DNA from: Thermosulfurimonas marina
GTDB taxonomy: Bacteria > Desulfobacterota > Thermodesulfobacteria > Thermodesulfobacteriales > Thermodesulfobacteriaceae
Assembly: GCF_012317585.1 (NCBI RefSeq)
Contig: NZ_CP042909.1
Location: 992,001 to 1,056,000 of the forward strand
Direction of reading: 5' to 3'
Length of the DNA stretch: 64,000 nucleotides
A program made the position numbers and the translations under genes. Shown one piece after another: positions 8,508 through 37,018 of this stretch (positions are counted from its first letter, which is position 1; each line of letters opens with the position of its first letter). The notes beneath the pieces are model-generated. The model saw only the letters and a program-made list of their open reading frames with translations, made no database searches and had not been told where the DNA came from.

Positions 8508-8536
8508 ACTTTAATGAAACTTTAAGCGCCCTTCAA
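8508..8536 (-). promoter_or_regulatory. Putative sigma-70 promoter for the glutamate synthase operon
   Basis: On the minus strand, TTGAAG (8536-8531) and TAAAGT (8513-8508) are separated by exactly 17 bases. Each matches the consensus at four of six positions. This predicts a transcript start near 8501, about 45 bases before the GTG start. Confidence 0.5.
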
Positions 8537-17858: not shown

Positions 17859-17873
17859 TTGGATTGCCCTTAG

Positions 17874-20906: not shown

Positions 20907-21907
20907 TTGCCGGGTCCTTTTCGAAATTTTTTCCAGATCAGGGGAAAGATTAGCCCCAAAACGATCATCCACAGGGCCGCTTCTAACCAATGAGGGTCAA
21001 AGAGATAGGTGTAGACAAAGGAAAGAGTATGATCGAACCATTTGGGGCCCGGAACGAAAATGGGTTTCACTTCTACGTCAAGAACACCGTTTACGAGTTT
21101 CACTTTGAGATAATGGTAGAAGAAATGTCTCGGATCCCCGCCGTAAAGTCTAGCTCCTGCCCCGCCGCTGATGGTGTAAGGAAGGCCATTCCAGTTTCCA
21201 TGAAAATAACCATGGATGTGTCCGGCAAATACGTGAGAGACCCCGTAGTCCCTGAAAACCCTCGAAAGAAATTTGGCCTCTTTTTCGGGTAGACAATGAT
21301 ATTCGTGAGGCCGGGGATCATAAAGGGGAATGTGGAGAAAAACCAAACGGTGGTCGCAAAGGTCCCGGCTCTTCCTGAGTTCTCCTTCAAGCCAGGATCT
21401 TTCTTTGAGGTTAAGCTTGCTTGCGGCATCATCTAGGATCAAGAAACAGGTCCTTCCGATACGAAAGGAGTAATAAGGCCGGCCGAAGATCCGAGTATAA
21501 AGCGGATAACCGCCTCCTTTTAGTTCGTGATTGCCGATGACCGTAACCAGGGGTTTATGAAGGTTCTTTTGGATAAGATCCAAAAAAAGAGAATACGATG
21601 TCTTGCTTCCCGAATGGACCATATCTCCCAAAGCAATGACAAAGGAGATTTCAGGATCCTGGTCAATCTCCCTTAAGAGGCTTTCAAAGGCATAGATGCT
21701 GAACTGGCTATCTCCAAATACGGCGAATGAAAAATCATGCGGATCCTTAACCCTTATTCTAGAAAGATTGCGAGTATTCCAATCTGTAGCTGGAAGGGCG
21801 CAAACATGTTCATAGAACTCAAGCCCGAGAATGGCTCCCAACGCACCCAGAAGAACAAAGAATCGCAGGGATATTCTCCTAGCTTCTTTAAGAGGCACCT
21901 CACGCAC
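20903..21907 (-). CDS. Membrane-anchored calcineurin-like metallophosphoesterase
   Basis: This 334-residue protein has an N-terminal membrane segment (residues about 12-30), a metallophosphoesterase domain and a second C-terminal membrane helix (about 306-325). Metal motifs are FGDSQ, LGDMVHSG, GNHE, FLHIPLYDP and GHIHGYF. The first motif has Gln where many members have His. The topology would place the catalytic domain in the periplasm. It lies between an adaptor gene and an RND pump gene, overlapping the latter by four bases. A phosphoesterase inside an RND operon is unusual; the substrate could be a phospholipid, undecaprenyl or sugar phosphate, which is speculation. Confidence 0.88.
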   Translation of the reverse strand: MREVPLKEARRISLRFFVLLGALGAILGLEFYEHVCALPATDWNTRNLSRIRVKDPHDFSFAVFGDSQFSIYAFESLLREIDQDPEISFVIALGDMVHSGSKTSYSLFLDLIQKNLHKPLVTVIGNHELKGGGYPLYTRIFGRPYYSFRIGRTCFLILDDAASKLNLKERSWLEGELRKSRDLCDHRLVFLHIPLYDPRPHEYHCLPEKEAKFLSRVFRDYGVSHVFAGHIHGYFHGNWNGLPYTISGGAGARLYGGDPRHFFYHYLKVKLVNGVLDVEVKPIFVPGPKWFDHTLSFVYTYLFDPHWLEAALWMIVLGLIFPLIWKKFRKGPGK

Positions 21908-21911
21908 CTTC

Positions 21912-22958
21912 CTAATCGGGAACTCTGTAAATCCGACTAAAATCTCGATAAAAGAGTTCGTAGGCCCCCTTAATCACCACCCTTTCCCCTTCTCGGAGAC
22001 CAGAGACGACCTCTACGAAACCATCCCCGGAAAGCCCGGTCTTGACCATCCGCTTCTCCAACCCCTTTTCGCTTTTGACGAAGACGTAAGCCCTTTCGGC
22101 TTCGTCATAGACGAGGGCCTCTTTGGGGACGGCCAGGGCCTTTCGATGTTCCTCGAGGATCACCACTCCCCTCACGGACTCACCCGGGGCCAGGGACCTT
22201 GAAATATCCCTCCCTTCGAGAAAGACCGTTATCCCTCCCGCCGGGGTCCGTTCGGGGGCCATCCTCGCCACCTTGGCGGAAAGGGTGCGGTCCGGAAGCT
22301 GGATCAGGGCCGGTTTGCCGGAGAGGCTGACGCCTTCCGGGGGGAAGATGATGGCCTTGACCCAGAGAGCCTTCGGGTCCAGGACTTCAGCCAGAACCGC
22401 TCCCTTTTCCACCCTCTGACCGATAGAGACCCTTCGCCGGGTAAAGATTCCCGAAATCGGGGCCCTGATCCGCAGCCGGGTTTCAAAAAGGTGTAGTTCG
22501 TTTTTCCGGGCCGCGAGTTCGTTTTTGAGTTGTAGAAGGTGTTCTTCGGCGTTAAGGAGCTCTCCGTAAGGGACGATCTTGGCCTTAACTCCTTCCCTCT
22601 TTAACCTCACAGCCTCCTCGGCCAGAAAGATTTCCTTTTCAAGAACGGCCACTTGTGACCTTAGGGTGGCAAGCCTTCTTTTCACCTCCGGGCCGCCCAG
22701 GACGAAGAGGACTTCTCCGGCCCTCACCTGGCTCTCATCGGGAACGCCTATCGAGACGATCCGACCCGGCGTGAGCGCCGTTATCCTTACGCTCTTTTTG
22801 GACAACACCTTCCCCACAAAAGGGACAGTCCGACGAAAGTCTCTTCTCACCGGGGTAGAAACTTTGATGAGAGACGGTTTGACTTTGGCCGCTTCTACGA
22901 ATTTGATCAAAGATATAATCAGAAAAAGTACGCAAGCGACCGAAAAGATAGTCCTCAT
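21912..22958 (-). CDS. RND periplasmic adaptor (membrane fusion protein), second copy
   Basis: This 348-residue HlyD/AcrA-type adaptor has an N-terminal signal anchor (about residues 4-24) and a lipoyl half-motif LTPGRIVSIGVPDESQVRAG. A helical hairpin (about 90-155, rich in Lys/Glu/Leu) comes next, then the second lipoyl half RAPISGIFTRR, beta-barrel and membrane-proximal domains ending KGAYELFYRDF. It links an RND pump to an outer-membrane channel. It lies six bases after the first pump gene and four bases before the metallophosphoesterase. Confidence 0.9.
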   Translation of the reverse strand: MRTIFSVACVLFLIISLIKFVEAAKVKPSLIKVSTPVRRDFRRTVPFVGKVLSKKSVRITALTPGRIVSIGVPDESQVRAGEVLFVLGGPEVKRRLATLRSQVAVLEKEIFLAEEAVRLKREGVKAKIVPYGELLNAEEHLLQLKNELAARKNELHLFETRLRIRAPISGIFTRRRVSIGQRVEKGAVLAEVLDPKALWVKAIIFPPEGVSLSGKPALIQLPDRTLSAKVARMAPERTPAGGITVFLEGRDISRSLAPGESVRGVVILEEHRKALAVPKEALVYDEAERAYVFVKSEKGLEKRMVKTGLSGDGFVEVVSGLREGERVVIKGAYELFYRDFSRIYRVPD

Positions 22959-22963
22959 TTTTC

Positions 22964-25900
22964 TTAACCTGTTGGATATTCTCTTTTAATAAGCGCCAAT
23001 AAGGCCGGCAAAACCACGAGAACCAGCGGCAATTGAAGACAGAGACCAGAAATTATGGCGATGGCCAGGGGCTTCAGCATAGCTGCTCCCTGACCAATTC
23101 CGAGAGCCAGGGGCATAAGGGCCAAAATGGCAGCCACCGTGGTCATGGCCACCGCCCGCAGGCGATTTCTCCCGGCAAGGATCAAGGCCGTTTTATACGG
23201 TACATGGCGCGGAAGCAAACGATATTCGGAGAGATAGAAAATGGCTGTTTCGGTAACAATGCCCACGATCATGGTAAGCCCCATCATGGAGGAGATATTG
23301 ATCTCGGTATGGGTAATCCAGAGACCTACAAAGACTCCCGCCAGAGACAAAAGGGTGGTTGCCATTACGGCGATAGCCATCCGGAAACTTTCATAGAGAA
23401 ATAGGAGAAGCAAAAAGACCAGAAGCACCGCGGACACGAAAACGGCCAAAAGCCCGGCAAAGGCAATTTGTTGCTGACGGTAAAGACCACCGAGCTCATA
23501 ATAGACCCCTTTGGGAATGAGTCCCGGACGATTAAGCACCCTCTTTACATCCCGGATGACCGATCCCATATCCCGACCGCTGATACGTCCGGTAACGGCC
23601 ACCATCCTCTTTAGGTCTTCGTGCATTATCTGGGGTTGACCGGTGAGCACCTCCACCCTGGCGATACGCCTCAAAGGGAAGAAATGTCCATCGGGAGCCC
23701 GCAGGCGGAGGGCCTCAACCTTGGAGGCGGTATCTCTGAGATGGCTTGGGATCCAGACTCGAACTCCCACCATTTTGGGAGTCTTCTGGATCTGGGTGGT
23801 GACCGTGCCACCAAGGTAATAAGAGAGCATTCTGGTTACCCATTCGGGATCCACCCCTTCAAGGGCCGCTCGATCCCGGTCCACATGGATGACCAGAGCG
23901 TCGCCGGCAAGGACGATCCCATCTCTTACATCCACCACGCCGGAGATCTTTCTTATTTCTTCAGCTACTTTGGGAGCCAGTTTCCGCAAGAGAGTACCGT
24001 TATCGGAAAAGAGCTTTATCTCTATGGGCTGCGGGACAGCCGTAAGATCTCCAATGAGATCTTCCATCAACTGGGCCATCTCGATCTCAAGCCCTGGGAC
24101 CCTGCGCTCGATACGGCCTCTTATGTCCTCCATCACAGCCTCGATATCCCTCCGGGGTGGGGGCTTCAACCGGACGAAGAAATCGCCCTCGTTGGCCTCA
24201 GTAATATGGCCCCCCAGAGAGAGTCCGGTCCTCCGGGAATAGGTCTCTACGTCTGGCGTCTCTTGCAATATCATCTCGACCTGACGCAGGAGACGATCCG
24301 TTTCGGTAAGGGAGGTCCCAGAAGGAGCTCGATAATCAAGTACAAACCCTCCCTCATCCATTTTAGGCATGAAGCCAGAGCCTAACCGATGATAAGCTAT
24401 CCAGCCGATACCCACCAAAATCAAAAGTACTGGAATAATGAGCCAGGGTCGAGCCATAATTCTCTTCATGAAACTTTCATATCTTTCATAGAACCAGGAA
24501 GCCCATCTCCCGGGCCTTTCCTTTTCGGCGTCTTTCTGGGTAAGCAGATGATTTGCCAGGATAGGAACCCCCAACCAGGCCACAAAAAAGGAGATCAGGA
24601 GGCTTGCGGCCATGGTAAGAGAGAGGGCCTTAAAAAAGGCCCCGGTTACCCCGGAGAGAAAGGCCAGGGGAGCAAAAATGATGGTCGTCGAGGCCGAGGA
24701 GCCGGCAAGCGGCCTAGAAAGCTCCCGAACGGCCGTGGCAATGCCAAGCTCCTGATTGGCCAGTTCTCCAAGCCTTCTTACGATATGTTCCTCCATGACG
24801 ATCATGTCGTCGATGATGAGACCCACGGCCGCGGCCAGGCCTCCCAGGGTCATGATGTTGAAGCTCATGTGGAGGACGTAGAGGAGGATAATGGTAGCTG
24901 CGAGGACACTCGGAACCAAGACGGCGGCAATAAAGGTCATCTTGAGATTTCGCAAAAACAGCCAAAGGACCAGGGCGGCAAAAAGGAGGCCTATAAGCAC
25001 CGCATCCCTTACGCTCCCGGCCGCCGAGAGGATGAGCTCGCTCTGGTCATACCACTTGGCAATTTTGATTCCTAGGGGAAGATGTTTGCGAAATTCAGCC
25101 AGCTTTTTCTTGACCTCCTTAGCTATTTCAACGGTATTACCCCGAGGTTGTTGATAAATTAGGAGGAGTACGGCATCGTGGCCGTCGGCTGTGACCCTGA
25201 TCCATTGAGGAGCGGTACCTCGGCGGACGGTGGCAATATCGTCCAGACGAACAAGTCCATTCTTGCCGGCCCGGATGATGGTCTCTTTGATTTCTTTCAG
25301 GCTCTGAAAGCGGGTGTCCGAGATGACTAGATAGAGTTTATAGTGGTCTTCCAAACGTCCTACGGCCTTGATGACATTGGCCGCTGAAAGGGCCCTGGCA
25401 ACATCGTCTATCGAAAGCCCCAAGGCATCCAGCTTGGCCGGATCGATCATGACCTCGTATTCTTCCTCCGCCCCTCCTTGGACTCCAACCTTGGCCACCC
25501 CTTTAACGGTGGAAACCAGAGGCCGTAACTGGTAAAGGGCTAGATCCCTCAGTTCAACCAGAGAATGGGTGTCAGAGGTGAGACTATAGGCCAAAACTGG
25601 AAAGACGGTGGGGTCCATGCGCCTTACGGTGAAAGAAGTTCCCCGGGGGAGGCGGGGAAGGACCTGGTTTATGGCCGATTCTACCTGAAGCATGGCCGCC
25701 ACCATGTCTTCTCCCCAATCGAAGTTGATGGAGATATCGGCGCTGCCTCGGCTGGTAGTGGAGCGGATGCTTCGTACTCCAGGAACAGACCTGATGGCCT
25801 CCTCCACCGGGCGGGTCACCTCAATGGCCATGCGTTCCGCGGGTCGGTCACCAGCCTCTAGTTTCACCTCCACGCGGGGAAAATCCACGTGGGGGAAGAG

Positions 25901-26005
25901 GGCCACCGGGAGTCTAAAACTGGCAGCCAGTCCTCCTAGAGCCAATATAGCAATCAAAAAGAGAATCGAACGGCGGTGGCTTTGCATCCACTCAACCACA
26001 TTCAC
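22964..26005 (-). CDS. RND-family efflux pump, inner membrane subunit (first pump)
   Basis: This 1013-residue AcrB/CusA superfamily transporter starts MNVVEWMQSHRRSILFLIAI. The porter domain contains VTRPVEEAIRSVPGV and SRGSADISINFDWG. TM4 carries the Asp pair in AAAVGLIIDDMIVMEEHIV, needed for proton flow. No Met-rich metal pathway typical of CusA is evident, so drugs, bile-like compounds or lipids are as likely as metals. The start overlaps the upstream adaptor stop by four bases. Together with a second pump, two adaptors and one outer-membrane channel it forms a large efflux operon. Confidence 0.92.
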   Translation of the reverse strand: MNVVEWMQSHRRSILFLIAILALGGLAASFRLPVALFPHVDFPRVEVKLEAGDRPAERMAIEVTRPVEEAIRSVPGVRSIRSTTSRGSADISINFDWGEDMVAAMLQVESAINQVLPRLPRGTSFTVRRMDPTVFPVLAYSLTSDTHSLVELRDLALYQLRPLVSTVKGVAKVGVQGGAEEEYEVMIDPAKLDALGLSIDDVARALSAANVIKAVGRLEDHYKLYLVISDTRFQSLKEIKETIIRAGKNGLVRLDDIATVRRGTAPQWIRVTADGHDAVLLLIYQQPRGNTVEIAKEVKKKLAEFRKHLPLGIKIAKWYDQSELILSAAGSVRDAVLIGLLFAALVLWLFLRNLKMTFIAAVLVPSVLAATIILLYVLHMSFNIMTLGGLAAAVGLIIDDMIVMEEHIVRRLGELANQELGIATAVRELSRPLAGSSASTTIIFAPLAFLSGVTGAFFKALSLTMAASLLISFFVAWLGVPILANHLLTQKDAEKERPGRWASWFYERYESFMKRIMARPWLIIPVLLILVGIGWIAYHRLGSGFMPKMDEGGFVLDYRAPSGTSLTETDRLLRQVEMILQETPDVETYSRRTGLSLGGHITEANEGDFFVRLKPPPRRDIEAVMEDIRGRIERRVPGLEIEMAQLMEDLIGDLTAVPQPIEIKLFSDNGTLLRKLAPKVAEEIRKISGVVDVRDGIVLAGDALVIHVDRDRAALEGVDPEWVTRMLSYYLGGTVTTQIQKTPKMVGVRVWIPSHLRDTASKVEALRLRAPDGHFFPLRRIARVEVLTGQPQIMHEDLKRMVAVTGRISGRDMGSVIRDVKRVLNRPGLIPKGVYYELGGLYRQQQIAFAGLLAVFVSAVLLVFLLLLFLYESFRMAIAVMATTLLSLAGVFVGLWITHTEINISSMMGLTMIVGIVTETAIFYLSEYRLLPRHVPYKTALILAGRNRLRAVAMTTVAAILALMPLALGIGQGAAMLKPLAIAIISGLCLQLPLVLVVLPALLALIKREYPTG

Positions 26006-27105
26006 TCTCTTTTCTCCGTCCGAACGGCTATTCCGTCTTCAAGTTCATAATTCCCAAGGATGACCACCAAATCTCCGGGATGGAGATCCTGGCCGATAAC
26101 CTCCACCTGAGATTCGGTTTCCAGACCCATCTTGACCGTGTGTTTCCGGGCTCGACCATCCTTGATGGTAAAAAGGACATAATGATCTCCTTCCGGAAGA
26201 ACCGCAGAACGAGGAACAAGGAGAGCTTCTTTAGCAGCAACGATTATCTCGCCCCGGACATACTCATTAAGAAGTAGGTCTTTGTGAGAGACAGGGACTA
26301 CAAAGACGTTCACCAGCCGAGTTGAAGGATTCACCGAGCGGGAGACGGCCCGGATAATGCCTTCTATGGCAGACTTAGCCGGTCTGTTAACCGGGAAGAG
26401 TCTTACTTTTTCTCCAGGTTTCAGGCGAGAAATATCCTCTGGTTCGACTCCTAGTCTGACTTCAAGGGCCCCTTCGGTTACGATCTCTAGCAAAGGGCCT
26501 CCTGCCGGGACGATGGCTCCTTCCTGGACATAAACCTTGCCGACGATCCCGTCTTGCGAGGCCTTGAGGGTCTTGGTCTTTCCGAGTCCCTTCTTCTTGA
26601 GACTTTCAAGCCTAAGTCTGGCCTCCTGAAAGGCCTGTTCCGCCTGAAGCAGTTCCTGATTGGTGGCCAATTTGAGAGCCTTTTTCTTTTTGAGCTGAGC
26701 GAGTTTCTTTTTGGCCATCTTGTAGGCCGTTTGGGCCACCTCAAGCTTCAAAAGGCTATCTGGACTTGGAGCGAGCTCAAGCAAGGGGGTTCCGGGGCTA
26801 ATCTCTTCGCCTTCACTCACAAAAATACGCCTTACCTGGCTTTCAAAGGGTATCGAGATAATCTCCACCGCTCCTGGAGCGGGGATGACCGTTCCGTAAG
26901 CTACTTCAGTCTCGAAGATCTTTCCCTTTCTTACTCGAGCAACCTTTACGGCGACCGTCTTTCTAAAAAATGTTTGGGGATAGCGGTTATCGTTTTTAGA
27001 ACTCGGAGAGGAGTAACCGGTTAAATGCCAGAAGATGGCCCCTATAAGAGGGACCAGGATTAGGATAGCCAACCTTTTTTTGTTTATCCCGAATCTATCT
27101 TTCAT
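26002..27105 (-). CDS. RND periplasmic adaptor (membrane fusion protein), first copy
   Basis: This 367-residue adaptor has an N-terminal membrane anchor (residues about 10-30). The first lipoyl half is around SIPFESQVRRIFVSEGEE, followed by a coiled-coil hairpin (about 120-170, with AQLKKKKALKLATNQE). The second lipoyl half is SQDGIVGKVYVQEG, and the beta-barrel and C-terminal domains follow. It begins one base after the stop of the outer-membrane channel gene and overlaps the first pump gene. It is only distantly similar to the second adaptor, so each pump may have its own adaptor or both may form a mixed hexamer. Confidence 0.9.
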   Translation of the reverse strand: MKDRFGINKKRLAILILVPLIGAIFWHLTGYSSPSSKNDNRYPQTFFRKTVAVKVARVRKGKIFETEVAYGTVIPAPGAVEIISIPFESQVRRIFVSEGEEISPGTPLLELAPSPDSLLKLEVAQTAYKMAKKKLAQLKKKKALKLATNQELLQAEQAFQEARLRLESLKKKGLGKTKTLKASQDGIVGKVYVQEGAIVPAGGPLLEIVTEGALEVRLGVEPEDISRLKPGEKVRLFPVNRPAKSAIEGIIRAVSRSVNPSTRLVNVFVVPVSHKDLLLNEYVRGEIIVAAKEALLVPRSAVLPEGDHYVLFTIKDGRARKHTVKMGLETESQVEVIGQDLHPGDLVVILGNYELEDGIAVRTEKRE

Positions 27106-28509
27106 CTACTTCATATCTCCTTTGGGATTAACAATTCCCAACGTCTTGCACCTCATCGGAAGGTAGACCCCGGAGGCGATCTCCAGGGCCACCCCGAGGT
27201 CGCTTTGTGTCTGCCTGAGCCTAAGAAGTTCGAGACGTTTGGCCAAAAGTTCGTTTTGCAGCCGGTAGTAACCAAGAAGATCGGCATTTCCCTGGTGGAG
27301 GGCCTCCTTGTAAGTGACAAGCAATCTTTGGAGGGCTGCTTTAGCCTCCTCGGAAGCAACGATCTTCCGGCGCACAAAGGCCATCTTTTCAAGGATTTCT
27401 GCCACCTCGGCTCGGGCGGAAAAGAGTCTCGCCAGGTATTCGTCGTAGAGCTTCTTGCGGGTGGCTTCCTCTAGGGCAATGTGGGCCTGGCCCCGGTCAA
27501 AGAAGGGAAGCTCTATGGAGACCGCCAGTCCGGTGGTGATCACGTCTCCGGTATCCTTGGCCCGAAGAAGACCGATTCCTATTTTGGGAAACTGGGAAAG
27601 TACCGCTGCCCGAAGACGTTCGTCCTGGGCCTGATAGCTCATCTTTAAGGCCAGGAGATCGAGTCTCCTTTCCGCAAGTCCAGAAAGAAGCTTCTCTCTT
27701 TTGATGGGTGGGGGCCAGGAGAGGAGCCGGACATCCTTTTGAATCTTCAGGTAAGTGTTCGGAGGAAAGCCGAGAATGCGGTTTAGCGTAAGCCTTTCCC
27801 GGGCCCTTTCCTCTCTCGCAGTTTCAAGGTCAAGCCTTATCTTCTGGTAGGCGGCCCTGGCAGCGGCCAGATCGAGAGCCGTCTTTTCTCCAAGGGAGAC
27901 GGCCCTTTCGACCAAGGTGAGGTTCTTCTTTAGCTCCCTTTCGGCCTCTCGTAAAAGGGCTACTTTCTTTTCGGCCCAGAGTAGACGCAAGGCGTGGAGT
28001 TTGGCGGCCTCGGCTACCTGCCATTCCTTCCAGGCCACGTTGAGATCAACCGCGGCCTTTTCCGCCCTGGCCGAAGAAACCCTGGCCCCCCTGGTAAGTA
28101 AGGCGGTTATCTCCCAATCAAGCTGGAAGGTGTAAGCATTTACCGTTCCGGAAGTCACTCCTGCTGTGGGAATCTCGTAACTTGCAGAAAGCTGAGGGTT
28201 GGGAAGGAGGCCGGCCTGAAGTAACTGGGCGGAGGCTATCTTCTTTTCGTCCCTTACCGCCCGGAGCTCGGGATTGGCCACCACGGCCAAAATGGCGGCC
28301 TCATCCGGAGAGAGCCCGTCCTTTAGATCGAACTTTACGGGTTTGAGAAGGGGATGTTTTATCCGAGAGATCTCTATTCCCAGAGCTTTAATATCCGGGC
28401 CTTTAAGGACCGTCTCCTCCGCCTTTCGGTCAAGAGGCAAAGGATGATAGACCGCACAGCCCGAAAGCACAAAGAAAACTAAGATCCAAAACTTCCAATA
28501 TTTTTTCAT
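27106..28509 (-). CDS. TolC-type outer membrane efflux lipoprotein
   Basis: This 467-residue outer-membrane factor has a lipobox (VLSGC, Cys18), so the mature protein is probably N-acylated like OprM/CusC. Two repeats of long amphipathic helices (about residues 130-230 and 340-430) match the TolC/OEP fold. It provides the exit duct for the two RND pumps encoded after it. The start overlaps the upstream small gene by four bases, giving the order small periplasmic protein, channel, adaptor, pump, adaptor, phosphoesterase, pump. Confidence 0.9.
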   Translation of the reverse strand: MKKYWKFWILVFFVLSGCAVYHPLPLDRKAEETVLKGPDIKALGIEISRIKHPLLKPVKFDLKDGLSPDEAAILAVVANPELRAVRDEKKIASAQLLQAGLLPNPQLSASYEIPTAGVTSGTVNAYTFQLDWEITALLTRGARVSSARAEKAAVDLNVAWKEWQVAEAAKLHALRLLWAEKKVALLREAERELKKNLTLVERAVSLGEKTALDLAAARAAYQKIRLDLETAREERARERLTLNRILGFPPNTYLKIQKDVRLLSWPPPIKREKLLSGLAERRLDLLALKMSYQAQDERLRAAVLSQFPKIGIGLLRAKDTGDVITTGLAVSIELPFFDRGQAHIALEEATRKKLYDEYLARLFSARAEVAEILEKMAFVRRKIVASEEAKAALQRLLVTYKEALHQGNADLLGYYRLQNELLAKRLELLRLRQTQSDLGVALEIASGVYLPMRCKTLGIVNPKGDMK

Positions 28510-28985
28510 GGTAAGCTGTCAGGAATTTCTTGTCTCTCGGCAGTAATCTTGAGAATAATCTTCCTGGCCTTCGAGGAATAAGGCAGCTTGATGGTAAAGT
28601 AGCCGAATTTGTGCCGTTTACTTCCAAGGATCTCTGGCACGGTAAGGACATCCTGTCGGGCCAGAATCGCATTCCCGGCATCTACCAGGACCGCTTCCAC
28701 CTCCACCCCGGAGAGTACGGTATGGGAAAGGTTGTGAACTTCTCCTTTGATGATCAAAGTGTTTCCCTTGAGTTCACAATAGGGGTTATTGAGAACGGCC
28801 TTTTTCTCGAGTTTATTCTCCAGTAAGACCGGGAGAAGACAGTTTTTTGCGCTCACCGTTTCATTGCCTACCGGTTCGTGTTCCTTATCCTGGCTTGCCC
28901 ATGAAGCTTTTCCCATAACTAACCCCAAGCCGATAAGCAAAGCAATCAGGAATCTTAACCCCTGGCATTGACTCTTTCCCTTCAT
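28506..28985 (-). CDS. Small secreted protein of unknown function heading the efflux operon
   Basis: This 159-residue protein has a signal peptide (hydrophobic residues about 11-27, likely cleaved after ASWA). The mature part contains two cysteines (NCLLP and NPYCE) and a beta-rich domain with GNTLIIKGEVHNLSHTVLSG and GYFTIKLPY. It resembles FxLYD-type immunoglobulin-like folds that add short beta-sandwiches to cell-surface proteins, though this is pattern-based only. ATG at 28985 is preceded by AAAGGAGG. It is probably translated with the TolC gene and may sense the envelope or bind the channel. I do not recognise a named family. Confidence 0.6.
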   Translation of the reverse strand: MKGKSQCQGLRFLIALLIGLGLVMGKASWASQDKEHEPVGNETVSAKNCLLPVLLENKLEKKAVLNNPYCELKGNTLIIKGEVHNLSHTVLSGVEVEAVLVDAGNAILARQDVLTVPEILGSKRHKFGYFTIKLPYSSKARKIILKITAERQEIPDSLP

Positions 28986-29066: not shown

Positions 29067-30476
29067 TTAATCTTGTACGATCTCTTTTGCAGGATGGGTC
29101 GTTTCGACTGGTGATGTCTGGGGCAGGACTATGTAAAAGACGGAACCCCGGCCGGGTTCGCTTTCTACTCTAATCTCTCCTCCGTGGGCCTCTATGTAGG
29201 CCCGCACCAAGGCCAGGCCCAGTCCCCGCCCTTTCGGGCCTTTTCTTCCGGTATAAAACCGGTCAAAGATCCGCGGGATTTCCTCTGGAGAAAGCCCTGG
29301 ACCGGCATCTTCCACCTTGATCCTTACCATACGATCTTTTTCAGTAGCCTCCACCCTCACCCGCCTGCCGGAGGGAGTGTATTTGAAGGCGTTGTCCACC
29401 AAATTGAAGAGGGCTTGAAGTAGGCGGGCACGATCACCGAGGATCACGAGCTCTTTTTCTGGCAGACAGACCTCGAACTGCAGATTTTTTTCTGCAGCCA
29501 GGGGCTCGAAGACCTGGCGGATTTCCGCCAGAAGATCCTTTAAGGGAAAACGTTCCCAGCGCAGTCTGAGGAGGCCGGTTTCGGCCTCGGAAAGGTCGAG
29601 GAGGAGGTCCAAGAGATGGAGGAAACGGTCGCTTTCATAGAGAATGTTCACCAGGAGCTCTTCCCTTTCAGAGCCTTCCCTCTCCAGGGCCCTTTCCGCC
29701 AAAAGTCTTACGTGGGCTAATAAATTCTTGAAATCGTGGGCTAGGTTATCGAAGATCTGGAGCAGTTCTCGAAAATATATCTCTAGCCGGCTTAGAAGAA
29801 GATTGAAGGTCTCGGCCAAACGGTCGGCCTCATCTCCCCGTCCGGAAAGGGGGACCCGCCTGGAGAAGTCCCGACTTTCCATGATTTCCCGGGAAACCCT
29901 TTCCATCTCCCGGATAGGTCGTAGAGAACGTCGAGAGAGCCAGAAACCAAGGGGAAGAGTTAAAAGCAGGGCCAGCCCTCCAGACCAGAGAAAGGCCCGG
30001 TGTACTTCCCGCAGAGTCCGACCCTCAAAACGCAGGGACACGGCCATCTCCGCCCGGTAGGGCCCTAGTTGGAAGACCACTCCCCTTATCTTGACTCCCG
30101 AGGGGGCCCGAAAGAGATAAAATGTCGGCACAGCCGGGGTCTTTTCGGGCCAGGGGAGACGGGAAAACCAAGAGGAACCCTCGATGAAGATCACCCGTTT
30201 CCGGGCATCTCTCAGGCGAAAAAAATAATGTCCAGGCCCCTTTTCCCTTGCTTCGGCTGCGGCTAGGTCTTTAAGTCCGGGTAGCCCCTTGCGCTCGTAA
30301 AGGGTGAAGATTTCGCGCAGATCCTCCTGGAGATCCTGGTCCTGGTTCTGAAGGAGACGCTGGCTCAAGATGAGATGAACCGCACCGAAGAGCCCAACCA
30401 AACTTCCCAAGAAAAGCAAGGCATAGAGGGTGGCCAGGCGGAAAGCCAGGGAACGGAAGAGGGATTTAGGTCTCAT
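29067..30476 (-). CDS. Sensor histidine kinase (two-component system)
   Basis: This 469-residue membrane sensor has TM1 at about residues 11-33, a periplasmic sensor of about 125 residues, TM2 at about 162-180 and HAMP at about 181-234. The DHp domain carries the phospho-acceptor His247 in NLAHDFKNLLAHV. The ATPase boxes are NLVDNAFKYTP, EDAGPGLSPEEI and GRGLGLALVRAYIEAHGG. The usual Pro after the phospho-acceptor helix is missing (HDFKNLL instead of HDLRTPL), as in some CusS/PmrB relatives. Its start overlaps the response regulator stop by 11 bases. It lies directly upstream of the efflux operon and probably controls it. Confidence 0.92.
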   Translation of the reverse strand: MRPKSLFRSLAFRLATLYALLFLGSLVGLFGAVHLILSQRLLQNQDQDLQEDLREIFTLYERKGLPGLKDLAAAEAREKGPGHYFFRLRDARKRVIFIEGSSWFSRLPWPEKTPAVPTFYLFRAPSGVKIRGVVFQLGPYRAEMAVSLRFEGRTLREVHRAFLWSGGLALLLTLPLGFWLSRRSLRPIREMERVSREIMESRDFSRRVPLSGRGDEADRLAETFNLLLSRLEIYFRELLQIFDNLAHDFKNLLAHVRLLAERALEREGSEREELLVNILYESDRFLHLLDLLLDLSEAETGLLRLRWERFPLKDLLAEIRQVFEPLAAEKNLQFEVCLPEKELVILGDRARLLQALFNLVDNAFKYTPSGRRVRVEATEKDRMVRIKVEDAGPGLSPEEIPRIFDRFYTGRKGPKGRGLGLALVRAYIEAHGGEIRVESEPGRGSVFYIVLPQTSPVETTHPAKEIVQD

Positions 30477-31155
30477 CAGTTAAAATATAGCCCACCTCCC
30501 TTATGGTGCGGATGCTGGGGCGTTCACCCTTCTTTAGACCCAGTTTTTCTCGAAGCCGGCAGATGTAGACCTCTACGATATTGGATTCCGGCGAGAAATG
30601 ATACCCCCAGATCCGTTCTAGGATCTGAATCTTGGTGAGGACGCGCCCTTGATTACGCAGGAGATACTCCAGAAGGGCGAATTCTTTGGGGGAAAGGTCC
30701 ACCGGTCTGCCGTGCATACGCACTTCCCGGCGCAAGAGGTCCATCTCCAGAGATCCAGCCCGCAAGACCGTCTCCTCCCCTTCGCTCGGGCGGGAGGCCC
30801 GCCGTAAGAGGGCCTTTACCCGAGCCAGAAGTTCGGCAAAGGAAAAGGGTTTGGTGAGGTAATCATCGCTTCCCAGTTCCAAGCCCCGTACCCGGTCTTC
30901 CACCGAGCTTCGGGCGCTCAGAATGAGGACCGGAAGCTGTGGCCAGCGCCTGCGGACGCGCTGTAAAAATTCAAAGCCATTCATATCCGGAAGCATGAGG
31001 TCTAGGATCATGAGGTCTATTTCCGTTCCGGAAAGAATAGTTTGGGCGGTCAAGGCGTCCGGGGCCTCCTCCACCGAAAAACCGGCCTCTCGCAGCCCCC
31101 GAGAGATGAATTCCAGAAGGTTTCGATCATCTTCCACGATCAGGATTTTACGCAT
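30466..31155 (-). CDS. OmpR-family response regulator
   Basis: This 229-residue regulator has a receiver domain with Asp9/Asp10, the phosphorylation site Asp52 (MILDLMLPD) and Lys102 (LTKPF). A winged-helix DNA-binding domain follows (about residues 130-229; ending RPSIRTIREVGYILTDE). It is the partner of the downstream histidine kinase. No clear ribosome site precedes the ATG. A predicted -10 (TAAGAT) and a pair of CTTAA half-sites lie just upstream, suggesting autoregulation and control of the divergent glycosyltransferase operon. Confidence 0.93.
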   Translation of the reverse strand: MRKILIVEDDRNLLEFISRGLREAGFSVEEAPDALTAQTILSGTEIDLMILDLMLPDMNGFEFLQRVRRRWPQLPVLILSARSSVEDRVRGLELGSDDYLTKPFSFAELLARVKALLRRASRPSEGEETVLRAGSLEMDLLRREVRMHGRPVDLSPKEFALLEYLLRNQGRVLTKIQILERIWGYHFSPESNIVEVYICRLREKLGLKKGERPSIRTIREVGYILTDET

Positions 31156-31189
31156 GTGTCTAAGATAACATGGGACATCTTAGAGAGAG

Positions 31190-31219
31190 CTTAAGGAAAG
31201 CTTAAAACATTTTAAGCTT
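31190..31219. promoter_or_regulatory. PmrA-box-like direct repeat and palindrome in the divergent promoter
   Basis: CTTAAG-GAAAG-CTTAAA (31190-31206) is a direct repeat of CTTAA with an 11-base period, the layout of PmrA-type OmpR-family boxes. The second half-site is also part of a 10-base inverted repeat (AAGCTTAAAA/TTTTAAGCTT around CA, 31198-31219). It lies between the response regulator (-) and the ArnT-like gene (+). A minus-strand TAAGAT (31182-31177) sits eight bases beyond it as a possible -10. Confidence 0.55.
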
Positions 31220-31275
31220 CCTTTCATTTAGCCTCAAAGGAAGAGGTTCAGGATGGCCAAGAGAAGAGGTTTTTG

Positions 31276-32343
31276 ATGTCTAAAGAAATCTTGAAAGTAT
31301 TTTTGTTGGCCTTGTTTCTGGGCCTTTGGTTTCAGGGGACGCGGCCCTTCATGGGGCGAGACGAGCACCGCTATCCGCAGGTCGCCCGTACTATGCGGAG
31401 TCGGGGCGAGTGGCTCGTTCCTTACTGGGAGAAGCATCCGCATCTCACCAAACCCCCAGTTATCTACTGGATGATAGCCGCAGGGGAGAAGCTCTTCGGG
31501 TCCGGGCCCTGGGGGGCGCGTATTCCCCACGCCCTGGCCCTGGCCGTTACTGCCGCGGCAATAGCGGCCCTCGGGGCAAAACTTTTCGGGGAAGAGGGTT
31601 TTAAGGCGGGCTTCCTTTATGCTGTGACCCTCACCCCCTTTGTGGCGGCTAACATTGTCACCCCAGACACCCCCTTAGTGATGTGGGAGGTCCTTGCGGC
31701 CTGGGCCTTTTTCACCAGGCCTCTCCTTGCTTGGGTCTTCTGGGGCTTGGCCTTCATGACCAAGGGCACGGCGGTATTCCCGGTCATGCTCCCTTTTGTC
31801 TGGTATGGCTGGCTGGCCAAAAAAGATCTCCGGGGCCTAACTAAGGGATTGGCCCTTTTCCTGCTGGTGGCGCTTCCCTGGCATCTTTACATTCAGATGC
31901 GCTTTCCCTATTTCTGGAAGATCTTTCTTAAAGAGGAAATAAGCGGAAGACTTTTACATAATTATTATCATCGTAACAGCGCCTGGTATGCCCCCTTTTA
32001 TATTTATCTTCCCCTACTTACCGTAGGGGCCCTTCCCGGATTCGTGTGGTTTATAAGGGATTTTAAGGGCCTTCGGGATCTCTGGCGGGAGATCCACCTC
32101 CGGGTGATCCTTTTGTGGTACGCGGTCCCTCTTACGGTTTTTTGGCTGGCCAAATCCCGCCTTCCTCTCTACATTCTGCCTCTTTTTGCCCCCTTTTCCT
32201 TGATGGTGGTGGGTTTGCGGTTAAAGAGAGGCAGGGCCCTCCCCGGTCCCCCGTTTTGGGGTTTTTGGATTGCCGGGCTTTTAGTCCTTAAGGCCGCGCT
32301 TTCCTGGTACTTCAAAAGTCATGGTATATTTCCTGAGCCATGA
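31276..32343 (+). CDS. ArnT-like membrane glycosyltransferase (short form)
   Basis: This 355-residue multi-spanning protein belongs to the ArnT/PMT superfamily. The catalytic first loop contains RDEHRYPQVARTMRSRGEW and then HLTKPPVIYWMIAAGEKLFG (about residues 31-75). It has about 10 helices but lacks the C-terminal periplasmic domain seen in full-length ArnT (about 550 residues). ATG at 31276 follows AAGAGAAGAGG. It is the first gene of a rightward operon and overlaps the next ArnT-like gene at ATGA. It probably moves a sugar from a polyprenyl carrier to lipid A or a glycan. Confidence 0.85.
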   Translation: MSKEILKVFLLALFLGLWFQGTRPFMGRDEHRYPQVARTMRSRGEWLVPYWEKHPHLTKPPVIYWMIAAGEKLFGSGPWGARIPHALALAVTAAAIAALGAKLFGEEGFKAGFLYAVTLTPFVAANIVTPDTPLVMWEVLAAWAFFTRPLLAWVFWGLAFMTKGTAVFPVMLPFVWYGWLAKKDLRGLTKGLALFLLVALPWHLYIQMRFPYFWKIFLKEEISGRLLHNYYHRNSAWYAPFYIYLPLLTVGALPGFVWFIRDFKGLRDLWREIHLRVILLWYAVPLTVFWLAKSRLPLYILPLFAPFSLMVVGLRLKRGRALPGPPFWGFWIAGLLVLKAALSWYFKSHGIFPEP

Positions 32344-33953
32344 AGCGGGAGCGATTTCTGATTTTTGCGCTGATCCTGGGCTGCGGGGTTTTCCTTTTCT
32401 GGAATCTAGGAGAGCGCCCCCTCTGGGGGGTGGAGGGGCGGTGGGCCGAAGGGGTGCGGGAGATGATCCTCCGGGGGGACTGGTGGGTCCCCACCCTAAA
32501 CGGTGTGCCCCACATCACTAAACCCCTTATCCCCTACTGGCTTATCCGCCTCGCGGCTCTGGTTTTCGGAGGGCTCAACGAGTTTACGGTGCGACTCCCG
32601 GTAGCCCTTTGTGCCGCCGGCACCCTCGGGGCCTTTTATTTTCTGGCCCGGACCTTTTTTGAGCCCTTCTGGGCCCTCACGGCCACCGGGCTAATGGCCA
32701 CCACTTGGGGCTTTGTGGCCTACGCCCGGGTGGCTCAGAGCGAGATCTACCAGCTTTTCGGGATCACCGCCGCCCTGGCCTTCTACTTCCGCTTTCGGGA
32801 GCGGGAGAGCCTTTGGGGGTATTTAGGGTTCTGGCTTTCGGCGGTCTTCGCCGCCCTTTCCAAGGGGCTTCCCGGGCTGGTAGTACCCTTAATGATCGCC
32901 GCCCTGGAGCTTTTCTGGCGGCGCAATTTCCGGCACCTCAACCCCAAAAACCTAACGGTAGGTCTCCTCGCCTTGGGTCTTTATTTTGGCCATTATTATG
33001 CCCTCTCTCGGGCTACCCATAGCGAACTCCCTTTTTATCTCTTTTTCCGGGAAAATGTGCTCCAGGCGGTCTCCCCCTATGACAATCGTGAACCCTTCTA
33101 TGTGTACTTTTATTATGTGCCCCTCCTCCTTCTTCCCTGGACCCCCTTTTTCTTGGTGGGAGGGCTGTGGGCGGTAAGGGGCTGGCGGAGAATTTCGGAA
33201 GCCGAGAAGCTGGTACTCCTGGCGATCGGGGCCATCTTTATCCTTTTCACCCTGGCCCGGGCCCGTCGCTCTTACTATATCCTGCCCATCGTTCCCCTGT
33301 GCCTTCTGGTAACCACGGCCTATTTACGGAGGGCTCTGAGGGAGCCGGATCCTCTTTCTCGGGCCCTCTTTTACCTTTATGGCCTCTTGACCTTTCTTCT
33401 GGGGCTTGGGGCCGTACTTTTGCCCTTTCTCTGGCCTCATGCAGGGCTTCCTTTTCCTCTCAAACTTGCCGTTGGATTTTCGGGGCTGGCCCTTCTTTTG
33501 GCCCTGGCCCTCTGTATGGCCTGGGATCTAGCTCCCTGGGGACTTATCTGGTCGTATCTTATAGCGGCCATCTGCGGGCTTGCGCTTCTTACCCCGCAGC
33601 TTACTCCCCCCTCGGAAAAGGTCTTCGGGAGGGCCCTGCGAAAGATAGCCCGGGCGGAAAAGACTTCTCCCTGTGCCCTGGGCAAAGTCTCGGCCAATCT
33701 CCTATTCTATCTTTCCTGGCCGGAACCTGTCCCCTCTTTCCGAAAGCCAGAGGAGCTCTCCCCTTCCTGCAGGCTTGTCTTTTTTAGGGAAAAGTTTTAT
33801 AAGAAGGAGGGCCGCATAAAGGAAATTGTGAAAGAAAGGGGCTTAAGGCTTTACGGTTTGCCTGCAAGATGGCGTTCTAGGGATGAAAACAAGAACTATC
33901 TCTTAGCCAGCCCTTCGGAAGTCCCCTCGGAGGATTTGAGACCTTGTCCATGA
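32340..33953 (+). CDS. ArnT-like membrane glycosyltransferase (long form)
   Basis: This 537-residue protein begins with a signal anchor and carries the ArnT signature WGVEGRWAEGVREMILRGDW then LNGVPHITKPLIPYWL (about residues 28-66). About 12 membrane helices are followed by a soluble C-terminal region of roughly 130 residues, as in true ArnT. It overlaps both neighbours by four bases. The paired short and long ArnT-like proteins may act on different acceptors or form a complex. The family usually uses a Glu/Asp in the first loop, here present as E-G-R-W. Confidence 0.87.
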   Translation: MKRERFLIFALILGCGVFLFWNLGERPLWGVEGRWAEGVREMILRGDWWVPTLNGVPHITKPLIPYWLIRLAALVFGGLNEFTVRLPVALCAAGTLGAFYFLARTFFEPFWALTATGLMATTWGFVAYARVAQSEIYQLFGITAALAFYFRFRERESLWGYLGFWLSAVFAALSKGLPGLVVPLMIAALELFWRRNFRHLNPKNLTVGLLALGLYFGHYYALSRATHSELPFYLFFRENVLQAVSPYDNREPFYVYFYYVPLLLLPWTPFFLVGGLWAVRGWRRISEAEKLVLLAIGAIFILFTLARARRSYYILPIVPLCLLVTTAYLRRALREPDPLSRALFYLYGLLTFLLGLGAVLLPFLWPHAGLPFPLKLAVGFSGLALLLALALCMAWDLAPWGLIWSYLIAAICGLALLTPQLTPPSEKVFGRALRKIARAEKTSPCALGKVSANLLFYLSWPEPVPSFRKPEELSPSCRLVFFREKFYKKEGRIKEIVKERGLRLYGLPARWRSRDENKNYLLASPSEVPSEDLRPCP

Positions 33954-35017
33954 AAGTGGTAAAACTGGCCCTTATAGGTTGTGGAAAGGCGGCCACCCGC
34001 CACCAGCGGCTTTTCCGGGAGATGCCGGAAGCAAAAGTGGTGGCGGTCTCGGATCTTGATCCGGCGAAGGCCCGGGCCTTTGCCGAGGCCCTCTCTGCGG
34101 AACCTTTTACCGACTGGCGGGAGATGCTCGCCCGCCACCCCGAGGTCGAGGTGGTGGATATTGCCGTGCCTTCCGGATTGCACGCCCGGGTAGCCCTCTC
34201 GGTAATGCGGGAGTTCCGCAAACATGTTCTTCTGGAAAAGCCCATCGCCCTTCTTCTGGACGAAGCTCAAGAGATGGTGGAGACGGCCCGCAGCCTGGGG
34301 CTCAAGCTGGTCACGGTGTATCAGAATCGTTTCAACCTCCCGGTGAAACTCGTGCGGGAGGCCCTTCAGGGCGGACATTTCGGAAAACCGGTCCTTTTTT
34401 CCGCACGCTTTTATTGGTGTCGCCGGCAGGACTATTACGACAGTGCGGCCTGGCGGGGGACCTGGGCCCTTGACGGAGGGGCTCTGGCCCAGCAGGGGGC
34501 CCACCATGTGGACATGCTTCGCTGGCTCGGAGGAGAGGTGGAAAGCGTCTATGCGGAGATGGCCACACGGCTCAATCGCTTGGAGGCCGAAGATCTCCTG
34601 GTGGGGACCATAAGATTCAGAAATGGAGCCCTTGGGACCATTGAGGCCACCACCTGTGCCCGTCCTCGGGACCTGGGGGCCGAACTGGTGGTACTGGGGG
34701 AGAAGGGCTCGGCCCGCCTGGGAGGCTTTGCCATGAACGAACTCCTGCATCTAGAGTTTGAGGACGGCTTCCCCCCGCCGGAACTTCTAGAGGCCCATCG
34801 CCGCAATCCAGAAGATCCCTTGGGGTTTGCCCATCGTGAGTGTCTGCGGGCCGCTCTGCGCTATTTCGCCGGGGAAGGCCCTGACCCGCGACTCTGTTTG
34901 GGGGAGGAGGCGGTGGCCTCTCTGGAACTGATTCAGGCCCTCTACGAGTCTGCCGAACGGGGAGAACCGGTGAGGTTCCCCTTTCGACCCGAAAAATCTC
35001 GCCTGGGGAGAGGGTAA
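33950..35017 (+). CDS. Gfo/Idh/MocA-family sugar dehydrogenase (WlbA/GnnA-like)
   Basis: This 355-residue NAD(P)-dependent oxidoreductase has the Rossmann motif ALIGCGKAATRH at residues 6-17 and the catalytic EKPIAL motif (about 96-101). The later segment VYQNRFN ... WRGTWALDGGALAQQGAHHVD is characteristic of WlbA/WbpB/GnnA-type enzymes that oxidise C3 of UDP-N-acetyl sugars. The following gene is the matching aminotransferase, as in the gnnAB and wlbA/wlbE pairs that make 3-amino sugars. It overlaps the previous gene at ATGA. The substrate assignment is inference from motifs and pairing. Confidence 0.85.
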   Translation: MKVVKLALIGCGKAATRHQRLFREMPEAKVVAVSDLDPAKARAFAEALSAEPFTDWREMLARHPEVEVVDIAVPSGLHARVALSVMREFRKHVLLEKPIALLLDEAQEMVETARSLGLKLVTVYQNRFNLPVKLVREALQGGHFGKPVLFSARFYWCRRQDYYDSAAWRGTWALDGGALAQQGAHHVDMLRWLGGEVESVYAEMATRLNRLEAEDLLVGTIRFRNGALGTIEATTCARPRDLGAELVVLGEKGSARLGGFAMNELLHLEFEDGFPPPELLEAHRRNPEDPLGFAHRECLRAALRYFAGEGPDPRLCLGEEAVASLELIQALYESAERGEPVRFPFRPEKSRLGRG

Positions 35018-35018
35018 A

Positions 35019-36134
35019 ATGCCCGTGCCTCTTCTTGATCTTAAGCGTGACTGGCCGGAGATCCGCGAGGAGGTGGAGGCCGGCTGGCGGCGGGTGACGG
35101 AGACCATGCGGCTTCTCAACGGGGAAAACCTTCTGGCCTTTGAGGAGGAGGTGGCCCGGTTTTTCGGGGCCCGTTTTGCCTTCGGAGTGGGTTCCGGGAC
35201 CGCGGCCCTTTGGCTGGCTCTTTTAGCCTGCGGGGTCGGTCCGGGGGATGAGGTCCTCATCCAGGCCAACGGTTTTGTAGCCGATGTGGAGGCCGTCCTC
35301 TGGGCCGGGGCGCGTCCGGTGCTGGTAGAGTCCGAGGAGGAGTTTTTCGGGCCGGATCCCGAGGCCGTGGAGCGGGCCCTCGGTCCCCGCACCAAGGCCC
35401 TCATCGTGGTCCATATGTACGGGCATCCGGCCCGTATTAAGGAGCTTTCGGAGATCTGCGCCCGCCATGGGCTAATCCTCATCGAAGACGCCTCTCACGC
35501 CCACGGAGCCGAATACCAAGGTCGCAAGGTCGGGACCTTCGGGAAGGTGGGCTGTTTCAGTTGTGGGCCGGTTAAAAACCTGAACGCTCTGGGAGATGCG
35601 GGCTTCGTGCTTACGGACGATGAAGAAGTGGCCTATCGCCTGCGCTATCTTCGGGTGCACGGCCAGGTGCGGAAAAACGATCATCAGTTTTACGGATTTA
35701 ACAGCCGACTGGACGAGATCCAGGCCGTAGTCCTGAGGGCCAGACTTAAACGCCTTTCGGCCAAAAACGAGCGCCGGCGGGAGATCGCCGAGCTCTACCG
35801 ACGCGAGCTTTCGGGGATCTCCGACCTTAAACTTCCTCCGAAAGACGGCCCCGAACGTCTAAGTGTTTATCACCGGTTTGTGGTCTTTACTCCGCGACGG
35901 GACGAACTGCAGGCCTTCCTCAAGGAACGAGGGATCGGCACCGGGGTCTATTATCCCATACCCCTCCACCTCCAGCCCGCCTGGAGGGCCGCCGGTTTTC
36001 CGGATTTCCCCGAAGGGACCTTTCCGGTGGCCGAAAGACTCTGTCGGGAAGGACTGGCTCTTCCCATGTTTGCGGAGATGACCGAAGGCGAAATTCAGGA
36101 AGTTATTGAGGCGGTAAAGGCCTTTTTCAGATGA
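35019..36134 (+). CDS. DegT/DnrJ/EryC1-family sugar aminotransferase
   Basis: This 371-residue PLP enzyme transfers an amino group to a keto-sugar nucleotide. Landmarks are GSGTAALWLAL (about residues 55-65), EDASHAHGAEYQGRKVG, and the PLP lysine in GPVKNLNALGDAGF (about 186-199). The C-terminal motif RGIGTGVYYPIPLHLQPA fixes the sugar. Following a Gfo/Idh dehydrogenase it probably makes a 3-amino sugar nucleotide (GnnB/WlbE-like); in a lipid A setting this is also analogous to ArnB. Its end overlaps the GT2 gene at ATGA. Confidence 0.9.
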   Translation: MPVPLLDLKRDWPEIREEVEAGWRRVTETMRLLNGENLLAFEEEVARFFGARFAFGVGSGTAALWLALLACGVGPGDEVLIQANGFVADVEAVLWAGARPVLVESEEEFFGPDPEAVERALGPRTKALIVVHMYGHPARIKELSEICARHGLILIEDASHAHGAEYQGRKVGTFGKVGCFSCGPVKNLNALGDAGFVLTDDEEVAYRLRYLRVHGQVRKNDHQFYGFNSRLDEIQAVVLRARLKRLSAKNERRREIAELYRRELSGISDLKLPPKDGPERLSVYHRFVVFTPRRDELQAFLKERGIGTGVYYPIPLHLQPAWRAAGFPDFPEGTFPVAERLCREGLALPMFAEMTEGEIQEVIEAVKAFFR

Positions 36135-37018
36135 TCTCCGTGGTCATCCCCGTCCACAACGAGGAAAAGAATATCGAGCCTCTTTTTCGAGAGATCGTCG
36201 CCGCCCTTGAACCCCTCGGGGAGCCTTTTGAGGTCCTCTTCGTGAATGACGGAAGCACCGACGGCACCGCCGAGGTTCTGCGCCGTCTGAAAGAGCGTGA
36301 CTCTCGGGTGCGGGTGCTTACCATGGACCGCAATCGGGGTGAGGCCGCGGCCTTGACCGCCGGCTTTTTCCATGCCCGGGGCGAGATCGTGGCCAGTATG
36401 GACGGCGACGGCCAGAACGACCCCGCCTATCTTCCGGAGATGATCCGAAGGCTCCGGGAGGGAGGCTACGCCGTGGTCTCGGGCTGGCGTATGAAGCGCA
36501 AGGAGCCCCTTCTTACCCGGCGCCTTCCCTCCTGGATCGCCAACCGGATTATCGGTCTGGTCACCGGTTTGAGGGTGCACGATAACGGTTGTAGTCTCAA
36601 GGTCTATCGGGCAGAGGTGGTCAAGAGGGTGCAGATCCCTCACGGATTTCACCGGTTTATCCCGGCCATTTTCGGGGTGAAAAACCACGAGGTGGCCGAG
36701 GTGCGCATCCTGGATCGTCCCCGCCGCTTCGGCCGCACCCACTACGGCCTCAAGCGCACCTTTGAGGTCCTTCGTGAACTGCTTACCATTCGGTTCGTCT
36801 TGGGGAATCGGGTTTTTTACGAAAAGGCGCTTCTGGCAGGCGGGTTAATCTCCGGGCTTTTGGCCGTAATTTCTCTTCTAAGCTCCCACAGACCTTTCTG
36901 GGCCCCCGGAGCCTTTCTGGGCGGCTCTTTCCTTTTCTTTTTTGTTTGGCACAATCTCCGCCGCTTCAATCAGGCCCAAAAGGAAGGAGTCTTTCATGTT
37001 CGAGAATTGGAGATTTAA
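36131..37018 (+). CDS. Polyprenyl-phosphate sugar transferase, GT2 (ArnC/DPM-like)
   Basis: This 295-residue protein has a GT-A fold: VVIPVHNEEKNI, VNDGSTDGT, the DxD-like DGDGQNDP (about residues 92-99) and SGWRMKRKEP. Two C-terminal membrane helices (about 236-257 and 261-280) follow. This layout is that of ArnC, which loads an amino sugar on undecaprenyl phosphate, and of dolichol-phosphate mannosyltransferase. The product would then feed the ArnT-like transferases encoded at the start of the operon. The order ArnT, ArnT, dehydrogenase, aminotransferase, GT2 supports an Arn-like pathway. Confidence 0.88.
   Translation: MISVVIPVHNEEKNIEPLFREIVAALEPLGEPFEVLFVNDGSTDGTAEVLRRLKERDSRVRVLTMDRNRGEAAALTAGFFHARGEIVASMDGDGQNDPAYLPEMIRRLREGGYAVVSGWRMKRKEPLLTRRLPSWIANRIIGLVTGLRVHDNGCSLKVYRAEVVKRVQIPHGFHRFIPAIFGVKNHEVAEVRILDRPRRFGRTHYGLKRTFEVLRELLTIRFVLGNRVFYEKALLAGGLISGLLAVISLLSSHRPFWAPGAFLGGSFLFFFVWHNLRRFNQAQKEGVFHVRELEI

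Follow-up and report, generated by a model that had tools for sequence, protein, structure and literature searches.

The region between a two-component system and a divergent ArnT-like gene in Thermosulfurimonas marina contains six nTTAA units in tandem, and judging from the sequence these probably (at roughly 0.78) constitute a six-half-site operator of the adjacent OmpR/PhoB-family response regulator (RR). The array spans positions 31179-31237 of the window, by which we mean the whole 64,000-nucleotide stretch analysed, and its units recur every 11 bp with a single 10-bp step (spacings of 11, 11, 10, 11 and 11; Table 1). An earlier note on this DNA had described an 11-base-period repeat, CTTAAG-N5-CTTAAA, between the RR gene and the first ArnT-like gene, and an exact copy is indeed found at 31190-31206 (CTTAAG at 31190-31195, five bases, then CTTAAA at 31201-31206), 35 bases before the RR start (31155, minus strand) and 70 bases before the ArnT-like start (ATG 31276, plus strand). 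This repeat corresponds to units 2-3, nearly all of it being held in the left half of the array. The minus-strand TAAGAT which the note placed nearby is also present (plus-strand ATCTTA, 31178-31183), not as a separate element but as the complement of half-site CTTAG at 31179, which shares the 11-base register of the repeat. OmpR/PhoB-family direct-repeat operators have this layout, in which repeats with a period of about 11 bp run head-to-tail next to an OmpR-family RR. Tandem 11-bp half-sites are also the build of PhoB pho-box arrays, from which the present array differs in its half-site word (TTAA) and in that no phosphate genes were seen nearby.

Table 1. Features of the array locus in the window, with the array units as they read in five genomes (order: window/G005/G003/G008/G030)
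Feature	Position	Strand	Details
Array left half, units 1-3	31179..31205	+	CTTAG-N6-CTTAA-N6-CTTAA; in-register TTAA units in 5/5 RR-orthologue genomes
Array right half, units 4-6	31211..31237	+	TTTAA-N6-TTTCA-N6-CTCAA; begins 10 bp after unit 3; overlays RR promoter
Unit 1			CTTAG/TTTAA/CTTAA/CTTAA/CTGAA
Unit 2			CTTAA/CTTGC/ATGAA/ATTAA/ATTAA
Unit 3			CTTAA/TTTAA/CTGAA/ATTGA/ATGAC
Unit 4			TTTAA in 5/5
Unit 5			TTTCA/TTTCA/CTTAA/TTTAA/CTTAA
Unit 6			CTCAA/CTCAA/TTCAA/CTCAA/TTTAA
Sigma70-type promoter, RR operon	31209..31237	-	-35 TTGAGG (31237-31232), 17-bp spacer, -10 TAAAAT (31214-31209); promoter scoring
OmpR/PhoB-family RR, likely array binder	30466..31155	-	Response_reg + Trans_reg_C
Sensor histidine kinase	29067..30476	-	HisKA/HAMP/HATPase; best NCBIfam cztS_silS_copS, 187.5 bits (cut-off 292.55)
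DUF3426-like small protein, same gene run as RR-kinase	28506..28985	-	24.1 bits, below cut-off 27.7
Efflux genes: outer-membrane factor, adaptor, RND pump, second adaptor, metallophosphoesterase, second RND pump	17874..28509	-	
Second adaptor	21912-22958	-	Named by eye and by tblastn likeness
Second RND pump	17874-20990	-	Named by eye and by tblastn likeness
Third ArnT-like (PMT_2) glycosyltransferase, end of RR-efflux run	16491..17858	-	
First divergent ArnT-like (PMT_2) glycosyltransferase	31276..32343	+	355 aa; ArnT structure 5ezm, E 5.7e-14 over residues 9-340
Second divergent ArnT-like glycosyltransferase	32340..33953	+	537 aa
Gfo/Idh/MocA dehydrogenase, DegT aminotransferase, GT2 (ArnC-like) glycosyltransferase	33944..37018	+	Activated amino-sugar genes

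The conservation of the array carries this reading. RR orthologues (E<=1e-70) were present in five of the 41 genomes of the class that were searched, namely the window genome (G000) and G005, G003, G008 and G030, whose RRs are 89%, 81%, 76% and 65% identical to that of the window, G030 belonging to another family. With the five intergenic regions aligned on the conserved TTTAA (window 31211), the array is in register in every one of them. Units 1-3 agree with TTAA at 51 of 60 letters in the five species (0 of 2000 dinucleotide shuffles reach this, with free offset and period 8-14), and at 30 of 36 letters in the three most diverged species, G003, G008 and G030 (0 of 5000 shuffles). Because shuffles ignore descent, and the five species are related by descent, the contrast between TTAA columns and spacers is more telling: leaving out the window-G005 pair as too close, between-species identity is 71% versus 31% for units 1-3 and 91% versus 38% for units 4-6. 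In units 4 and 6 the letters belong to the promoter as well, which would keep them conserved in any case. The poor units are G005 unit 2 (CTTGC) and G030 unit 3 (ATGAC), and the second position is T in all 30 units (five genomes by six).

A 58-nt pattern of the array (<=3 mismatches) has matches in 13 of 60 genomes. In the five RR-orthologue genomes it occurs at one place each, the RR promoter, with 0 matches for the backwards control; in the other eight (genera g5 and g6) the backwards control matches about equally often. The same-genus genomes G001, G002 and G004 (86-90% complete), which lack an RR orthologue, have no match to this pattern. When regions upstream of RR genes were scanned for three in-phase TTAA units (92 of 110 RR loci scored; left out were 13 whole-genome loci, 4 contig loci including L112, and 1 by a length/N filter), the five RR orthologues ranked among the top six, with one unrelated locus (L055) tying, and the 87 regions other than the orthologues were chance-like (4 at p<0.05).

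Taken alone, the two-unit repeat is no more than chance would supply; it is as part of the conserved six-unit array that it goes beyond chance. Exact CTTAA-N6-CTTAA occurs at 4 sites in the window genome (1,763,258 bases) against 2+3 = 5 for the backwards-pattern control. Allowing one mismatch, there are 6 matches within the window versus 2.76 expected (a figure of 6 was reached in 10 of 100 shuffles), and genome-wide the three-unit pattern with <=2 mismatches yields 25 matches versus 47 in the backwards control. The other three exact sites (genes named by eye from translations) fall inside thrS, inside an ABC-transporter ATPase gene, and in the gap that separates a J-domain gene from a radical-SAM methylthiotransferase-like gene, and an envelope gene lies downstream of none of the three. 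The note had pointed to a lipid A-modification regulon, to be checked by seeing whether such repeats precede envelope genes across the genome; the distribution looks random, which disfavours a genome-wide regulon, and we reject one built on either the two-unit or the three-unit repeat, as neither exceeds its backwards control. The conserved signal sits mostly on the RR's own promoter. The best candidate elsewhere in the window, TTTAA-N6-TTTAA-N6-TTCAA at 8510-8536, is upstream of a glutamate synthase gene and likely a chance match; this segment also has a TTGAAG-17-TAAA promoter-like layout resembling units 4-6.

The promoter of the RR operon sits exactly over units 4-6, with units 4 and 6 doubling as -10/-35 letters, and is the top minus-strand promoter in four of the five array genomes (scores of 10.0 in the window, 10.0 in G005, 11.3 in G003 and 10.0 in G008); the G030 counterpart, TTAAAG-17-TAAAAA, is weaker, was read by eye and falls outside the top promoter matches. 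Dimers of the RR would probably sit head-to-tail on the nTTAA half-sites at their 11-bp intervals, and such binding may damp or gate transcription of the RR-kinase-efflux run (and with it the third ArnT-like gene). Negative autoregulation is the simplest inference, since on the RR promoter the array reaches from -35 to about +25. The same binding might, more tentatively, activate the divergent ArnT-like/amino-sugar operon and thereby couple pump and surface-sugar expression, because the half-sites read toward that operon, itself without a good conserved promoter. In the five array genomes the best plus-strand candidates toward the ArnT-like gene score 4.2-8.3, weaker than the minus-strand promoter, promoter scoring detected no conserved plus-strand -10 before that gene, and we regard none of these candidates as convincing. 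The distance from the array to the ArnT-like start is also variable (by eye, some 23 bp at the shortest and more than 50 bp at the longest), which together with the missing plus-strand -10 tells against an activator bound in a fixed geometry. That the array controls the divergent operon is plausible, at about even odds.

A real possibility, if at less than even odds, is that the array is purely the autoregulatory operator of a Cus/Czc-like efflux two-component system and that its ArnT-like neighbours are transcribed independently. The minus-strand genes run in the order RR, kinase, DUF3426-like protein, outer-membrane factor, adaptor, RND pump, adaptor, metallophosphoesterase, second RND pump and third ArnT-like gene, so that efflux genes follow the RR-kinase pair on the same strand as in CusRS/CzcRS/SilRS systems, with whose models the kinase and RR rank highly. 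In contrast to those systems, ArnT-like and amino-sugar genes are attached here, and all scores stay below the curated cut-offs (RR, kinase and first pump at 201.3/279.2, 187.5/292.55 and 445.2/701.45 against TIGR01387, TIGR01386 and TIGR00914), placing the locus outside Cus/Czc/Sil membership. A further point in favour of pure autoregulation comes from G030, where the array is present although the RR-kinase pair has an asparagine synthase gene opposite it instead of an ArnT-like gene and is followed by genes for a DUF4352 protein and an M54 peptidase, with no efflux genes directly beside the RR. Since G030 keeps its array without ArnT-like or efflux neighbours, preservation of the array does not depend on the divergent operon. 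A broken ArnT-like gene (L118 14776-16292, split by an in-frame stop or frameshift) lies about 4 kb from the G030 RR-kinase pair. Independent transcription fits poorly with the lack of a good plus-strand promoter, with the divergent RR/ArnT-like arrangement, pair included, conserved in four of the five array genomes (window, G005, G003 and G008), and with the ArnT-like genes on both sides of the system in the window, G005 and G008, in each of which the third ends the pump run (the G003 stretch examined stops before that point). Three of the five PMT_2 genes of the window genome flank the RR-kinase system. In G031, from another family, neither a two-component system nor a pump separates the first and third ArnT-like genes, which are directly divergent, and of the array only a -10-like TTTAA is left; this gene order represents either a deletion or an older arrangement. 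The G031 pair (L120 1501-4036) is 67-68% identical to the window's counterparts.

The efflux cassette itself (17713-28522, outer-membrane factor to second RND pump, ~10.8 kb) shares ~97% DNA identity with that of G008, a member of another genus. Outside it the two loci are far more diverged (kinase/RR 66-77% in DNA, third ArnT-like protein 47% in amino acids), pointing to a pump block that was exchanged recently, with the framework around it conserved. On the plus strand the order is two ArnT-like genes, Gfo/Idh dehydrogenase, DegT aminotransferase, ArnC-like GT2 and O-antigen ligase. Against the ArnT model NF009784 the two divergent ArnT-like proteins score 100.7 and 76.2 bits (cut-off 567), which leaves them outside ArnT proper. 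The nearest structures to the dehydrogenase are 3q2k and 3q2i, which we take to be WlbA-type, and those to the aminotransferase are 7b0d, 2oga and QdtB (3frk), followed slightly lower by WbpE and lower still by ArnB entries. These likenesses suggest a 3-amino sugar and not L-Ara4N, making the dehydrogenase and C3-type aminotransferase (33944-36134) a candidate UDP-3-amino-sugar pair beside the ArnT-like genes; 3-amino sugars are made by Wlb/Wbp or GnnA/GnnB pathways. With LpxC and LpxK present in the genome, the organism likely makes lipid A; that lipid A is also what the modification finally acts on is doubtful.

The note had proposed a PmrA-like box driving arnT-type lipid A modification genes. 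Part of this stands: an OmpR-family RR does adjoin a conserved direct repeat of the PmrA/PhoB type facing ArnT-like genes, in a neighbourhood kept in four genomes. According to PMC3973317 and PMC4660055, PmrA (BasR) half-sites are nTTAAn, 5 bp apart and bound head-to-tail, and the box given in the former is CTTAAG-N5-XTTAAT, with CTTAAG as the Salmonella half1. The window has half1 exactly and a half2 that ends in A instead of T, and G030 has an exact box (CTTAAG-N5-TTTAAT). Unlike the PmrA box with its two units, the array has six; it also overlies the promoter of the RR itself and is not spread through the genome. The base-contacting residues listed in PMC4660055 are Asn188 and Asn196, with Thr187, Val192, His195 and Arg210; aligned by eye to BasR (42% identity to the E. 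coli protein), the RR retains Asn188, Val192 and Arg210 and has Thr187 changed to Ser, His193 to Tyr (His in G030), His195 to Cys and Asn196 to Arg. One of the two base-specific residues is thus replaced, and Arg at this position recalls PhoB, whose Arg201 aligns with it (PMC3973317). The RR scores 193.7 bits against the PmrA equivalog (cut-off 330), lower than against PhoB (204.2) or cztR/silR/copR (201.3), both also under their cut-offs, and a domain search found no EptA_B_N (PF08019) in the window genome, its positive control in E. coli being detected. The system is not PmrA by membership and is PmrA-like partly in working principle: its RR is far below the cut-off, a base-specific residue is changed, EptA is absent, the kinase and pumps are Cus/Czc-like, and the sugar genes point to a 3-amino sugar rather than L-Ara4N. 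A true PmrA-like box with lipid A genes as targets is accordingly unlikely, the absence of genome-wide enrichment and the G030 array without ArnT neighbours telling against it as well.

It is very unlikely that the array is no regulator site but a set of phased A/T steps that curve the DNA or act as an UP-like element of the promoter: its units are AT-rich, near the helical period and partly over a promoter, but the conserved word is TTAA with its TpA step and not an A-tract, the array is confined to the RR-orthologue group in the 92-region scan, and it is missing from G031, where the promoter -10 is kept. We reject a dyad site or hairpin formed by AAGGAAAGCTTAAAA/TTTTAAGCTTCCTTT (31193-31224) as barely credible, since its 15-nt arms, although 87% complementary, are partly kept in the nearest relative G005 alone and lost in G003, G008 and G030 (by eye), where the direct repeats remain.

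A six-half-site operator of the local RR remains our preferred reading. In Pseudomonas aeruginosa a single two-component system, ParRS, is tied both to an RND pump (mexXY) and to LPS sugar modification (arn), according to PMC3848899. The locus shares this logic of one system linked to both pump and sugar genes; it differs in that the sugar genes are contiguous with the regulator here, in place of an arn operon, and in that control is inferred. Tentatively, and with the odds well against it, the locus could be a self-contained envelope-defence switch that reached a PmrA/ParRS-like logic independently. One array between two operons would then couple RND efflux to the work of three ArnT-like enzymes that place a 3-amino sugar on the cell surface, and the efflux cassette would be the one part exchanged between genera. 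In the open-licence PMC literature we found neither this array locus described nor any account of how such a lineage regulates lipid A. For a lineage without described lipid A regulation in that literature, the array provides a defined operator candidate for a two-component system, and G031 a natural control that lacks the system. Should the array also govern the divergent operon, a single DNA element would link pump expression to the modification of surface sugars.
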